Assembly (NCBI RefSeq): GCF_037914945.1
Contig: NZ_CP149787.1
Span: forward strand, 744,001-808,000
Direction of reading: 5' to 3'
Source: Haloterrigena sp. KLK7
GTDB lineage: Archaea; Halobacteriota; Halobacteria; Halobacteriales; Natrialbaceae
Length of the DNA: 64,000 nucleotides
Shown here: positions 41,516-47,722 of the stretch, one piece after another
Layout of the letters: each line of letters starts with the position of its first letter
Numbering within the stretch: the first letter of the stretch is position 1
Translations under genes and position numbers: made by a program
Notes under the pieces: generated by a model
Database searches by the model: none
What the model was told of the DNA's origin: nothing
Seen by the model: only the letters and a program-made list of their open reading frames with translations

Positions 41516-42808
41516 ATGACACTATCACGACGTTCGACAATCAAGGCGATCGGTGTCGTCGGAACCGGATCGACGCTCGCCGGAACCGCCCTGGGTGTCG
41601 CCCAAGACGACGAACAGGCCACCGACGAGGCGCCGGCCGGCGACGAGGAACTCGGCGCGATTCGCGTCGGTCACTTCCTCCCCGACGCGCCGAACGTCGA
41701 CATCTACGTCGACGACCAGCAGATCCTCTCGGATGTCGGCTACGCCGAGCTCTCGCCGTATCTCGAGATCGTTCCCGGCACGTACTCGATCGCGATCACG
41801 CCCGCCGGCTACGACGACGCGATCTACGAGGGGACCATCGCCGTCGGGTCGGAGTTTTACACGGCCGCCGCGGTCGGCGAGTTCGAGGGCGGATCGGCTC
41901 CCGGAGGGACGGGCGATGACAGCGGCCTCGGCGGCGCAGGAAACGAGACCGCCGCCAACGAGTCGGCCGCGCTCGCGAACGAGTCGAACGACCTCGCGAA
42001 CGAGTCGAACGGGCTCCAGAACGAAACCGCTGCTAACGAGTCGGCCACCGGGACCGGTATCGACGCCGAGGAGGGGTTCGACGCGAACGGGTTCGACGTC
42101 CTGCTGCTCGTCGATTCCCAGACGGACGACGCCGAGGAGGGGACGGCGCCGCTACGGCTGGTCCACGCGGTCCCGGACGCGCCGACGATCGACATCGCCG
42201 ACGGGGAGACCGGGCAGACGATTTTCGAGGACGTCGGCTTCACCGAACCGTCGGGCTACGTTCCCGTCGAGCCGGGGACGCAGACCCTCGAGATCTTCCC
42301 GGCCGACGAGGACGACCGCGCCGGAGACACCGAGAGTGAATCCGACGGCTCGGACGCGAACGCCACCGAGACGGACGGCGGAAACGCGACCGACGGCAAC
42401 GAGACCGATGTCGGGAACGGGATCATCTCCCAGCCGGACCCGGTCGTGACCGTCGACCTCGAACTCGAGGCGGACACGGCGTACACGGCGTACGCCATCG
42501 GGTACCTCGAGGAACAGGACGACACGGAGCTGACGGTCGACGAATCGGAGGGCGCGACCGACGGCGAGTCCAACGACGGTGAGGGCGATGGGGAGACCAA
42601 CCGCGCGTTCGACGTGTACCTCGCCGTCGACGGCGAGATGAGCGACGGGCAGGAGACCGACGGCTCGAGTGCCGAAAACGAGGGCGGTGAGTCCGACGAC
42701 GAATCGATGGACGCGAACGAGTCGACTGCCGACGAACTGGAATCCGACGACGGGATGAACCGCACGGACGAGCGCGCTGCGAACGAATCGGCGACGGCCG
42801 ACCACTGA
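41516..42808 (+). CDS. Secreted DUF4397-domain protein with Tat signal and sequons
   Basis: The 430-residue protein begins MTLSRRSTIKAIGVVGTG, a Tat signal without lipobox. Two DUF4397-type beta domains are visible: one near 47-125 (IRVGHFLPDAPNVDIYVDDQ) and a second near 210-265 (LRLVHAVPDAPTIDIADG). DUF4397 is a bacterial/archaeal surface Ig-like domain. The second continues into an acidic, Asn-rich part with many NxS/T sequons (NATET, NATDG) before a final strand region FDVYLAVDGEM. Abundant sequons and acidity suggest a secreted, glycosylated protein. Confidence 0.8.
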   Translation: MTLSRRSTIKAIGVVGTGSTLAGTALGVAQDDEQATDEAPAGDEELGAIRVGHFLPDAPNVDIYVDDQQILSDVGYAELSPYLEIVPGTYSIAITPAGYDDAIYEGTIAVGSEFYTAAAVGEFEGGSAPGGTGDDSGLGGAGNETAANESAALANESNDLANESNGLQNETAANESATGTGIDAEEGFDANGFDVLLLVDSQTDDAEEGTAPLRLVHAVPDAPTIDIADGETGQTIFEDVGFTEPSGYVPVEPGTQTLEIFPADEDDRAGDTESESDGSDANATETDGGNATDGNETDVGNGIISQPDPVVTVDLELEADTAYTAYAIGYLEEQDDTELTVDESEGATDGESNDGEGDGETNRAFDVYLAVDGEMSDGQETDGSSAENEGGESDDESMDANESTADELESDDGMNRTDERAANESATADH

Positions 42809-44513: not shown

Positions 44514-45560
44514 CTACGTCTCGTTCCCGCCGGTCTCGTTAGCGCCCGTCTCGTTGGCAGCGGTTTCGTTCGCTTCGCCGCTCGCCTGTACGGCGGCCTC
44601 GAGATCGCTCGCGTCCTCGAGGGCGACGGTGTTAGCGTCCAGCGTCTCGATCGAGATCGCCGTCGCGGAGGCCTCGGAGACCGTCTCTCCGGTCTCGTTC
44701 TCGGCCGTCGCGTTGTCCGGAGCCGTCTCGTTCGCTTCGGACGCGTTCGCGTCGGTCTGATTGCCGGCCTCCTCGATCGACTGGATCGACATCGTATCGA
44801 CCGAGACGGTCTCGACGTCGAACTGCTCGATCGTGAGCGCCTCGATCTCCTCGCCGGTCGACTCGTTGGCGGTGTCGTTCGCCGAACCCTCACCGTCGCC
44901 GCCACCGAAGATACCGCCGATGAAGTCACCGATCTCGCTCAGGATCCCGCCGTCCTCTTCGGTTTCGATGGAGTCGATCGTCATCTGCTGGACGTCCATC
45001 GTCTCGATGGTGAGGTTCTGGACGGAGAGCGTGTTGGCGTCCTCGCTGATCACCGGTTGCTGTCCGTCGGTCGCGTTCTCGCTTTCGTTCTCACCGGTCG
45101 CGTTCTCATCGGTCGCGTTCCCGTTGGACGCGTTCTCCTCGGTGCTTCCCACCGGTTCGCCGTCGAACTCGAGGTCCGTCAGCGAGACGTTCTCGAGCGC
45201 GAGCCGCTCGAATTCGACGTTGGAGATGTTCACGCCGGTTCCGGTATCGTTCTCGGCGCCGGTCGCGTTCTCGCCCTCGCCGGATCGTTCGACCGACTCG
45301 TTGAGCTGCTCGAGGTCCTCCTGTGCGGCGTCGAGCTGCTCGATGTTCAGCTCCTCGATGGTCGCGTTCTCGACGGTCGCGTTCTCGAGTTCGAGCGTCG
45401 CGACCTGTACGTTCTCGAGCGTCGCCGCGGTGCTCGCATCGCCCATGTCTCCGGTGTCGGCGTTCGTCCCCGTCGCGGCACCCGCGAGGGCGGGCCCCCC
45501 TGCGAGCGCGACTGCTAACGCGACGAACACCGCACCGAACGTTTTCGCTCGTGAAGCCAT
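44514..45560 (-). CDS. Secreted Asn-glycosylation-rich repeat protein, paralogue 1
   Basis: The 348-residue protein has an N-terminal signal (KTFGAVFVALAVALAGGPALA, shown in two parts: KTFGAVFVALAVALAGG and PALAGAATG). Five beta-blocks of about 25 residues follow, near 47-77, 110-132, 175-200, 237-263 and 298-322, e.g. TLENVQVATLELENATVENA. They have alternating hydrophobic/polar residues like a beta-solenoid and are separated by acidic linkers with about two dozen N-x-S/T sequons. A Gly-rich hydrophobic patch (FIGGIFGGGDG) occurs near 213-223. No anchor is seen. It is paralogous to the gene at 45881 and shares its promoter. Confidence 0.75.
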   Translation of the reverse strand: MASRAKTFGAVFVALAVALAGGPALAGAATGTNADTGDMGDASTAATLENVQVATLELENATVENATIEELNIEQLDAAQEDLEQLNESVERSGEGENATGAENDTGTGVNISNVEFERLALENVSLTDLEFDGEPVGSTEENASNGNATDENATGENESENATDGQQPVISEDANTLSVQNLTIETMDVQQMTIDSIETEEDGGILSEIGDFIGGIFGGGDGEGSANDTANESTGEEIEALTIEQFDVETVSVDTMSIQSIEEAGNQTDANASEANETAPDNATAENETGETVSEASATAISIETLDANTVALEDASDLEAAVQASGEANETAANETGANETGGNET

Positions 45561-45880
45561 TGCAGTCGGACGTACCGGCGGTCTCCGGCTAAAACGAGGC
45601 GACTGTTACAGGGTTGTGGCGGGGAAACGCTGCGTTTGAGATTGACTAGCGGCCGATAATCAGCCGTTCATTCCCCGGCTAACGGCGATTTCGTCGACGA
45701 TTCGAACCGATCGAGACCGGTGGCTCGCGGCTGCCAACGACGGAACCCGCGCCGGCGACGATAGCAGTTCGCCCGCGATCGACGACGGGCGGAGACGTCA
45801 CTCTCGATCGGTGGTGTCCGGCAAAAAAGCGCAATTACAGGGTGGTCGGAACGGAAGCGATCGCGTGGCGTTCGTTCCGA
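45561..45880. other. Promoter of paralogue 1 and 3' side of paralogue 2
   Basis: Contains the 24-nt element 45584-45607 that is identical to 47395-47418 (see findings). Nothing else coding is seen. A T-run and CCCCGG-rich stretch near 45675-45690 could mark termination of neighbouring genes. Confidence 0.5.
45584..45607 (-). promoter_or_regulatory. Conserved promoter element of the sequon-rich pair, copy 1
   Basis: The 24-nt sequence is identical to that at 47395-47418, and both begin exactly 24 nt upstream of the respective ATG. On the minus strand it reads AACAGTCGCC, then TCGTTTTAGCCGGA; TTTTAG is the TATA box position for a leaderless start. Identity far exceeds what spacing alone would require. 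Confidence 0.8.
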
Positions 45881-47371
45881 TCAGCCCAGCAGTCCGCCGT
45901 CGTCCTCGCTGTCGTTCTCGGAGTCTTCGGTCTCCGTCATGTTGTCGTCAGTCGCGTTGTCGTCAGTCGTCAGGTTGTCTTCTTCCGTCTCGTTGTCCTC
46001 AGTCGTCGTCACGTTGTCTCCGGGCTCCTCGCTCCCGATCTCGTCGAGTTCGCTCGCGTTGCCCAGCGTCAGCGTGTCGACGCTCGAGTTACCGATCGTG
46101 ATCGAGGAAGCGGAGAGGTTAGCGATGGTTTGACCCTCGCTCTCGTTTTCCATCGTCGCGTTCGTCTCGTTGGTCGCGTTGTCTTCCGTCTCGTTGTCGT
46201 CCTCGAGACCGATGCCGTCGTCCTCGTCTTCCTGGATCGCCGCGGCGGTGTCGGTCTCGTTGTCGTCCTCGAGGATGCCGAGACCGTCGTCGGACTCGTT
46301 GTCCTCGGTCGCGTTCATCTCGTCGGTCGCGTTCATCCCGCCGTCGGCCTCCTCGACGGAGGTGACGTTCATCGACTCGATCGTGATCTCCTCGACGTCG
46401 AAGTGTTCGATCGTGAGGTTCTGGAACTCCTGCGTCGCGTTTTCGGTCTCGTTCGTCTCGTTGGTCGCGTTCGTCTCGTTGGTCGCGTTGTCGTCCTCGT
46501 CGTCGAGACCGATGCCGTCGTCTTCGTCTTCCTGGACCGCCGCAGCGGTGTCGGACTCGTTGTCGTCTTCGAGGATGCCGAGACCGTCGTCGGACTCGTT
46601 GTCCTCGGTCGCGTTCATCTCCGACTCGTTCGCGGAGGCGTTCATCTCGGCGTCGTCGCCGACGTTCAGCTCGTCAACGGTCAGCTCCCCGACCTCCATC
46701 GTCTCGATGGTCAGGTTCTGGATCGTGACGTTCTCGGTGCTCTCGTTGATCAGATCCTGACCGGAGGATTCGTTTTCGGTCGCGTTGTCTTCCGTCGCGT
46801 TGTCGTCCTCGTCGTCGAGACCGATGCCGTCGTCCTCGTCTTCCTGGACCGCCGCAGCGGTGTCGGACTCGTTGTCGTCACCGAGGATGCCGAGACCGTC
46901 GTCGGACTCGTTGTCCTCGGTCTCGTTCTCGGACGCGTTCATCGCCGAGTCGTTCGTCGACTCGTTCTCCGACTCGTTCATCTGCTCGAATTCCTCGAGT
47001 TCGACGTCCTCGAGTTCGAGCGTCTCGAACTGGATGTCGGTGAGGTTCGCTTCGCCAGTCGCGTTGCTCTCGTTAGTGGCGTTCGTCTGGTTACCGTCCA
47101 GTTCCTGCTGTAGCGCCGTCACGTTCGCGTCGAACTCCGAGACGTTCAGCTCCTCGATCGTCGCGTTCTCGACGGTGACGTTGTCGAGCTCGAGCGTCTC
47201 GACCTGCACGTTCTCGAGTGTCGCGCTCGACTCGCCTACGTCTCCGGCGTCGCCCATGTCTCCGGCGTCGTCGTTCGCGCCCGATGACGCACCAGCCAGG
47301 GCAGGACCCCCGGATAGTGCGACCATCAGTGCGACGAACGCAACGCCGAGCTTCTGTAGTCGTGAAACCAT
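45881..47371 (-). CDS. Secreted hyper-sequon repeat protein, paralogue 2
   Basis: Start at 47371 (MVSRLQKLGVAFVALMVALS) gives 496 residues; the promoter element at 47395 sets this start. After the signal, five beta-blocks at about 51-78, 109-129, 213-237, 316-341 and 416-442 match paralogue 1 in order and sequence (TLENVQVETLELDNVTVENA; IQNLTIETMEVGELTVDEL; FQNLTIEHFDVEEITIESM). Between blocks 2-5 lie three near-identical acidic modules (151-193, 255-297, 355-394) containing DDGLGILEDDNESDTAAA and QEDEDDGIGLDDEDDNAT. The repeats sit at a period of about 100 residues. About 50 N-x-S/T sequons are present. No anchor is seen. Confidence 0.8.
   Translation of the reverse strand: MVSRLQKLGVAFVALMVALSGGPALAGASSGANDDAGDMGDAGDVGESSATLENVQVETLELDNVTVENATIEELNVSEFDANVTALQQELDGNQTNATNESNATGEANLTDIQFETLELEDVELEEFEQMNESENESTNDSAMNASENETEDNESDDGLGILGDDNESDTAAAVQEDEDDGIGLDDEDDNATEDNATENESSGQDLINESTENVTIQNLTIETMEVGELTVDELNVGDDAEMNASANESEMNATEDNESDDGLGILEDDNESDTAAAVQEDEDDGIGLDDEDDNATNETNATNETNETENATQEFQNLTIEHFDVEEITIESMNVTSVEEADGGMNATDEMNATEDNESDDGLGILEDDNETDTAAAIQEDEDDGIGLEDDNETEDNATNETNATMENESEGQTIANLSASSITIGNSSVDTLTLGNASELDEIGSEEPGDNVTTTEDNETEEDNLTTDDNATDDNMTETEDSENDSEDDGGLLG
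46190..46309 (-). repeat. Acidic module repeat 3 within paralogue 2
   Basis: Codes for TEDNESDDGLGILEDDNETD and following residues to DDNE. Differs from the others by NETD for NESD and AAAIQ for AAAVQ. Confidence 0.8.
46481..46609 (-). repeat. Acidic module repeat 2 within paralogue 2
   Basis: Nearly identical in sequence to repeat 1 and repeat 3; offset 312 nt from repeat 1 and 300 nt from repeat 3. Confidence 0.85.
46793..46921 (-). repeat. Acidic module repeat 1 within paralogue 2
   Basis: First of three copies. It has GILGDD where the others have GILEDD. Copy-to-copy nucleotide identity is high, so the repeats are recent or homogenised. Confidence 0.85.
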
Positions 47372-47722
47372 TGCGATAGATCCTACCACCGGTTTCCGGC
47401 TAAAACGAGGCGACTGTTTCGAGATTATCTCGGAGAAAAGCAGTGTTGGAATCGTGCAACGGTCCCTAACCTCGCGTTCACCTGTCTCGATCGATGATGA
47501 TCATGGCTCTCGAGATGAACGAGGCGAATCGGATAGTAATTGTCACCTCGGTGAGTGAAATCGAACTTGTGCTTGCAGGCGATGGTTGATTATATCAGCC
47601 CGGAGGGAACGAGACATTTACCGGCGCGTTCGGCGCCGTCATCCACAGGAGTTATAGATTCTCGACAGCTGATCGGTTGCAAACCTTTACTGACTTACGT
47701 CCGACGGCCGAAGGGGCGGTCG
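47372..47722. other. Intergenic region: paralogue-2 promoter and tgtA upstream region
   Basis: The minus-strand promoter element is at 47395-47418. Towards tgtA the sequence becomes AT-richer; GCAAACCTTTACTGACTTACG (about 47680-47700) may hold the TATA box (CCTTTACTG). No separate gene seen. Confidence 0.5.
47395..47418 (-). promoter_or_regulatory. Conserved promoter element of the sequon-rich pair, copy 2
   Basis: Identical over 24 nt to 45584-45607 and at the same distance from the start codon, which supports the MVSRLQ start for the paralogue-2 gene. Confidence 0.8.

Follow-up and report, generated by a model that had tools for sequence, protein, structure and literature searches.

What kind of protein is built from five short conserved blocks separated by long linkers crowded with N-x-S/T sequons, and is it the blocks or the sequons that define it? 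The question is raised by two adjacent genes, P0001 and P0002 (Table 1), found in a 64-kb window (the whole stretch of DNA that was analysed). A first-pass annotation had described their products as secreted paralogues that share five beta-blocks in the same order, differ in the linkers, hold about 24 and about 50 sequons, show no clear membrane anchor and belong to no described family. We first consider the genes and their relatives, and then the core, the linkers and the role that the pair may play.

Gene pair, family and promoter

Both reading frames were confirmed on the minus strand, and for P0002 the ATG at 47371, with which the promoter spacing agrees, is preferred over an upstream GTG at 47389. 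Each product begins with a Sec-like signal (MxSR...VALxGGPALAGA) and is presumably exported by a Sec-type signal peptide, in keeping with the secretion that had been proposed. The mature parts contain two Lys and Arg residues in P0001 and none in P0002. The C-termini, read by eye, contain no membrane segment, PGF motif or PGF-CTERM-like tail of the kind found in archaeosortase-anchored proteins, and the absence of a clear anchor therefore stands for both proteins. An alignment with composition adjustment covers most of both proteins at E=1e-39, as expected of a paralogous tandem pair; the blocks are 49% identical and the linkers 20%.

Table 1. Features of the gene pair, in window coordinates
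Feature	Position	Strand	Remarks
P0001	45560..44514	minus	type A paralogue, secreted, 348 aa, 24 sequons
P0001 block 1	45315..45425	minus	residues 46-82; six pentapeptides, then short helix
P0001 block 2	45159..45236	minus	residues 109-134
P0001 block 3	44955..45035	minus	residues 176-202
P0001 block 4	44763..44852	minus	residues 237-266
P0001 block 5	44586..44675	minus	residues 296-325; capping helix at end
Type A amphipathic motif GILSEIGDFIGGIF	44907..44948	minus	P0001 linker 3, residues 205-218
Promoter element AACAGTCGCCTCGTTTTAG	45589..45607	minus	upstream of P0001
P0002	47371..45881	minus	type B paralogue, secreted, 496 aa, 53 sequons
P0002 block 1	47114..47224	minus	residues 50-86
P0002 block 2	46976..47053	minus	residues 107-132
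P0002 block 3	46655..46735	minus	residues 213-239
P0002 block 4	46343..46432	minus	residues 314-343
P0002 block 5	46031..46120	minus	residues 418-447
P0002 linker cassette copy 1	46138..46321	minus	linker 4; reference copy
P0002 linker cassette copy 2	46438..46621	minus	linker 3; 86% identical
P0002 linker cassette copy 3	46750..46933	minus	linker 2; 72% identical
Same promoter element	47400..47418	minus	upstream of P0002

No credible relative of either protein was found in Pfam, NCBIfam or the PDB, or in the plasmid and viral collections, and thus no strong match to a named surface-protein family has emerged to set against the claim that the architecture is undescribed. Matches to a DNA-ligase OB-fold and to GlnRS were dismissed as composition noise, and one to PHROG 15785 (E=0.0003) covers linker only and was judged low-complexity. 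The proposed search of haloarchaeal proteomes for the blocks was more productive, with relatives in 99 of 125 Natrialbaceae genomes and 26 of 29 genera; all named loci with relatives belong to the Natrialbaceae, and a profile search adds divergent members, their block order preserved, from further families of the order. The linkers of these divergent members are rich in N-x-T, in Thr (as ETT words) or in TP/ET, and a weak CARDB/NEW3-like domain lies at the C-terminus of some distant members in other haloarchaeal families. A core-only profile run against the whole phylum also gave matches outside the order, of which those that were read proved to be either 15-nt tandem repeats or the DNA of true pentapeptide genes in another frame, neither of them homologues. 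In the host genome the family consists of P0001 and P0002 only. We file the pair as an undescribed family of putative surface proteins of beta-solenoid type.

In most two-gene loci that were read the type B gene comes first, followed by the type A gene. The two types group across genera in a tree of the core (5 changes, against 17 with shuffled labels), which indicates that the tandem duplication is old; the exceptions, Natronococcus pandeyae and Natrarchaeobius, look like local conversion or re-duplication. The pair occupies a single syntenic site with conserved surroundings, flanked on one side by a divergent tgtA, often with arcS as well, and on the other by NUDIX and PadR genes; a gene for a DUF4397 protein is often present too. 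This frequent neighbour, at 41516-42808 on the plus strand of the window, is secreted-looking, with a twin-arginine start and 12 sequons, whereas orthologues at those loci that were checked contain 0-1.

The pair also has a promoter element in common with family genes across the Natrialbaceae. Among 57 such genes the family-wide form, GTAACAGTCGnCTCGTTTTAGCC, stops 25-26 nt short of the start codon in 53. Its AAC, the T after AG and its TTTTA are invariant, and most other positions are conserved in at least 81%. The element occurs twice in the window, against 0.04 times in shuffled sequence, and only at these same two places in the whole host genome when up to three mismatches are allowed; among relatives nearly all sites precede family genes. 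With just two genomic occurrences, both before P0001 and P0002, it was rejected as the mark of a wider regulon. The TTTTA, about 30 nt before the ATG, may be the TATA box of a leaderless transcript or one with a very short leader, and a dedicated factor may recognise the additional conserved half, GTAACAGTCG. In the window GTAACAGTCGnCTCGTTTTAGCC lies at 45587-45609 and 47398-47420 (minus strand), with a weaker conserved stretch containing GATAAT just upstream.

An interrupted core with a period of five

The blocks follow the pattern [LVMAI]-x-[IVL]-[E/D]-x, and the hydrophobic autocorrelation of P0001 peaks at lag 5 (0.46) and lag 10 (0.38), a period that points to a coil since a flat strand would alternate with period two. 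Across 28 homologues the blocks keep fixed lengths of 37/26/27/30/30, apart from three rows that differ by one residue, and the intervening linkers range from 19 to 109 aa. The core alignment contains a single gap in 3,948 cells (141 columns), and its mean pairwise identity is 0.66 against 0.35 for the linkers. Both halves of the original description, common blocks and differing linkers, are borne out.

AlphaFold2 models give five strand segments of about 20-30 residues in each protein, at pLDDT about 80-92 and with pTM 0.51 for P0001 and 0.45 for P0002, the two runs having used one alignment of 28 close homologues and so not being independent. In both paralogues a short helix follows blocks 1 and 5. 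The linkers have pLDDT under 50 and are mostly disordered in the models, and over half of all residues fall below this value. Disorder over all the blocks is therefore not what the models predict for either protein, and the suggestion that the blocks are solenoid strands is supported in a refined form: the period is five, and each block would make up roughly one coil of the same interrupted solenoid and not a separate unit. On this reading the core would be one solenoid, putatively right-handed, in which about five coils are separated by protruding loops.

Structural searches with the full-length models found nothing significant, either for both proteins against the PDB (Foldseek, best E 1.8) or for P0001 against viral structures, probably because the long linkers break the alignment; nearly all entries in the P0002 list are right-handed beta-helices, though insignificant. 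A PDB search with the full alignment gave no match. The best match of a core-only profile was 3pet, a 'putative adhesin' (E=0.0016), this being a lone and weak match for a profile that is periodic; the entries ranked next were mostly polygalacturonases and isopullulanase. Most of the weak profile and Foldseek matches thus belong to the right-handed parallel beta-helix class, which includes polygalacturonases, phage tailspikes, RbmB and 3pet, and of which one coil would fit a block of 26-30 aa. Unlike these proteins, the family has no significant fold match or catalytic residues, and has long disordered loops and a regular period of five.

The other known system to which the core can be likened is that of the pentapeptide repeat proteins (PRPs; PF00805/PF13599), which share the five-residue period, the inward residues i-2 and i, and a predicted solenoid. 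PRPs with loop insertions between coils are known, as in Rfr23 (24 residues), HetL and AlbG, and the class is defined by at least eight contiguous repeats of its consensus (PMC8145042). In the present family the runs are mostly of four or five repeats, with one of eight in 225 stretches, and in the window pair no more than six clear repeats follow one another. Position i-2 is Leu/Val/Met and i mostly Ile/Val where PRPs have Ala and Leu/Phe; in place of the PRP consensus [STAV][DN][LF][STR]x the family has L/V/M at i-2, T/E/D at i-1 and I/V/L at i, and A(D/N)(L/F)-type words number 0.5 per family gene. The best score against the Pentapeptide models of Pfam is 15.7 bits, from a distant member, against a cut-off of 38. 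Also unlike PRPs, each coil is interrupted by a linker, and the family is secreted and polyanionic. As regards the right-handed quadrilateral beta-helix of PRPs, each strand segment in the models is about as long as one coil.

Linkers, sequons and habitat pH

Mature P0001 contains 24 sequons against 5.9 +/- 2.1 in 5000 shuffles (maximum 14), and mature P0002 contains 53 against 10.0 +/- 2.7 (maximum 20), in line with the earlier counts, although the repetitive linkers cause such shuffles to overstate significance. As much as 77% of all Asn in P0001 and 95% in P0002 sits in sequons. A 184-nt cassette recurs three times within linkers 2-4 of P0002 (72-86% identity), and linkers therefore probably grow through duplication of modules. 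Linker 3 of P0001 carries an amphipathic motif, modelled as a low-confidence helix at residues 210-217, that marks type A across the family as ILxxIGDFxxGIF. One distant member likewise carries an amphipathic motif, IIGGIVDFIRGLFGG, between its blocks 3 and 4, which suggests that the motif is ancestral.

Dense sequons had been taken as a defining trait of these proteins, a view that does not survive comparison, since linker sequons are bimodal across 78 genomes and it is the blocks that are conserved. The 46 rich genomes (62 genes) have 1423 sequons against 316 expected when each linker set is shuffled, and the 32 poor genomes (56 genes) have 12 against 77, ratios that are descriptive given that linkers are repetitive and genomes related. 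With 1296 linker Asn in the poor group and 1614 in the rich, the poor group has ample Asn, but x-S/T rarely follows it.

Sequon state agrees with lifestyle in all 30 genomes to which a lifestyle was assigned, neutral species being rich and haloalkaliphiles poor. The lifestyles come partly from published accounts, which place Natronorubrum among the haloalkaliphiles and Haloterrigena and Natrinema near neutral pH (PMC8530250), and Natrialba magadii among the haloalkaliphiles (PMC3403918); for the other genomes they follow the type descriptions. The closest contrast is between Halobiforma haloterrestris, with 11 and 11 sequons, and H. nitratireducens, with 0 and 2. Given the supported branches, sequon state must have changed at least five times; with just 3-4 independent neutral/haloalkaliphile pairs (sign test p=0.25), the link between linker sequon density and habitat pH is suggestive, not proven.

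Loss of AglB was rejected as the cause of sequon-poor linkers, as AglB is present in 19 of 19 genomes tested, rich and poor alike. As a crude control, secreted proteins were picked from 400 kb of each genome by simple ORF and signal rules, which gave 23-32 proteins per genome. Their observed/expected sequon ratio was 1.76 and 1.71 for two neutral species, whereas two haloalkaliphiles gave 0.94 and 1.00; cytosolic proteins stayed near 1 in all four genomes. As this enrichment is confined to the neutral species, the family may exaggerate a secretome-wide trend.

The features expected of an AglB-dependent N-glycoprotein, namely sequons above chance, secretion and an encoded AglB, are all found here. 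Like the S-layer and other AglB-dependent glycoproteins of haloarchaea, the pair is secreted and acidic; unlike them, it lacks S-layer domains and a visible PGF-CTERM anchor, its sequons lie mostly in linkers, and its glycosylation is predicted. In Haloferax volcanii, AglB glycosylates dozens of secreted proteins, and the GlcA/GalA glycan described for this species is an example of the uronic acids that haloarchaeal N-glycans can carry (PMC8241124).

Proposed role and competing explanations

We consider it slightly better than an even bet that P0001 and P0002 are secreted, interrupted right-handed beta-solenoids of the cell envelope or matrix, in which a rigid scaffold displays a polyanionic, hydrated spacer or brush that is N-glycosylated in neutral species and based on Asp/Glu in those of soda lakes. 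The function, location and glycosylation of the pair we infer from the features described above. An ancient tandem duplication would have given rise to the two versions, types A and B, expressed from a dedicated promoter and exported by the Sec-type signal peptide. The five blocks, free of indels and each amounting to about one coil with strands of period 5, would stack into one rod, from which the four linkers, long, acidic and disordered, and a tail would loop out between coils. In near-neutral lineages the linkers, built of N-x-S/T words, would probably be N-glycosylated by AglB, with negative charge and hydration coming in part from the N-glycans; in haloalkaliphilic lineages the same linkers, Asp/Glu-rich and nearly without sequons, would supply the charge directly. 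Either way the loops would form a hydrated polyanionic coat, carried within the cell envelope by a rigid scaffold. Neither an anchor nor a partner was found, and we therefore only assume that the proteins stay at the surface; the type A amphipathic motif may dock the protein to the membrane or S-layer.

Of the competing explanations, an unlikely one is that the core is a PRP-like (quadrilateral) solenoid whose faces bind a specific protein or glycan partner, the linkers being solubility spacers under weak selection. Such a binder would suit the two inward positions per five residues, the conservation of the core sequence and weak Pentapeptide_4 matches (E=0.016 and 0.034), but these matches lie far below the Pfam cut-off, the runs are shorter than PRPs need, and a 4.5-fold sequon enrichment in one group with depletion in the other is unexpected for weakly selected spacers. 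The 3pet match and the C-terminal domains of some distant members would instead accord with an adhesin or cell-cell or surface-recognition protein of the beta-helix adhesin type, its interaction tuned by glycans or acidic loops; we judge this quite unlikely, as the match is a lone, weak one to a periodic profile and neither P0001 nor P0002 has an added domain or anchor. It would be more surprising still if these were mostly disordered, low-complexity secreted proteins, their period-5 blocks being short acidic repeats with no common fold. Simple repeats would slip in length, whereas the core is free of indels, conserved across genera and confidently modelled, and this speaks against such an explanation despite the low pLDDT of over half the residues and the profile matches to simple 15-nt tandem repeats in other archaea.

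The family, being widespread, conserved and equipped with its own promoter element, is probably an abundant or important part of the Natrialbaceae envelope, and its design separates the fold from the chemistry of the surface. A broader idea, which we put forward tentatively and with a little less than even confidence, is that the Natrialbaceae switch sequon use in envelope proteins with habitat pH: neutral species would carry sequons densely in loops, and haloalkaliphiles, several times in parallel, would keep the scaffold and AglB, avoid sequons and use Asp/Glu. If true, selection for and against N-glycans would have left a natural record in the linkers. One possible reason is that a polyanionic coat can be obtained from acidic glycans or from the protein itself, and another that high pH makes exposed Asn chemically less stable. 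Orthologous loops of this kind would let one ask why lineages select or avoid N-glycan sites, and the purpose of archaeal N-glycans would become testable through comparison and loop swaps.
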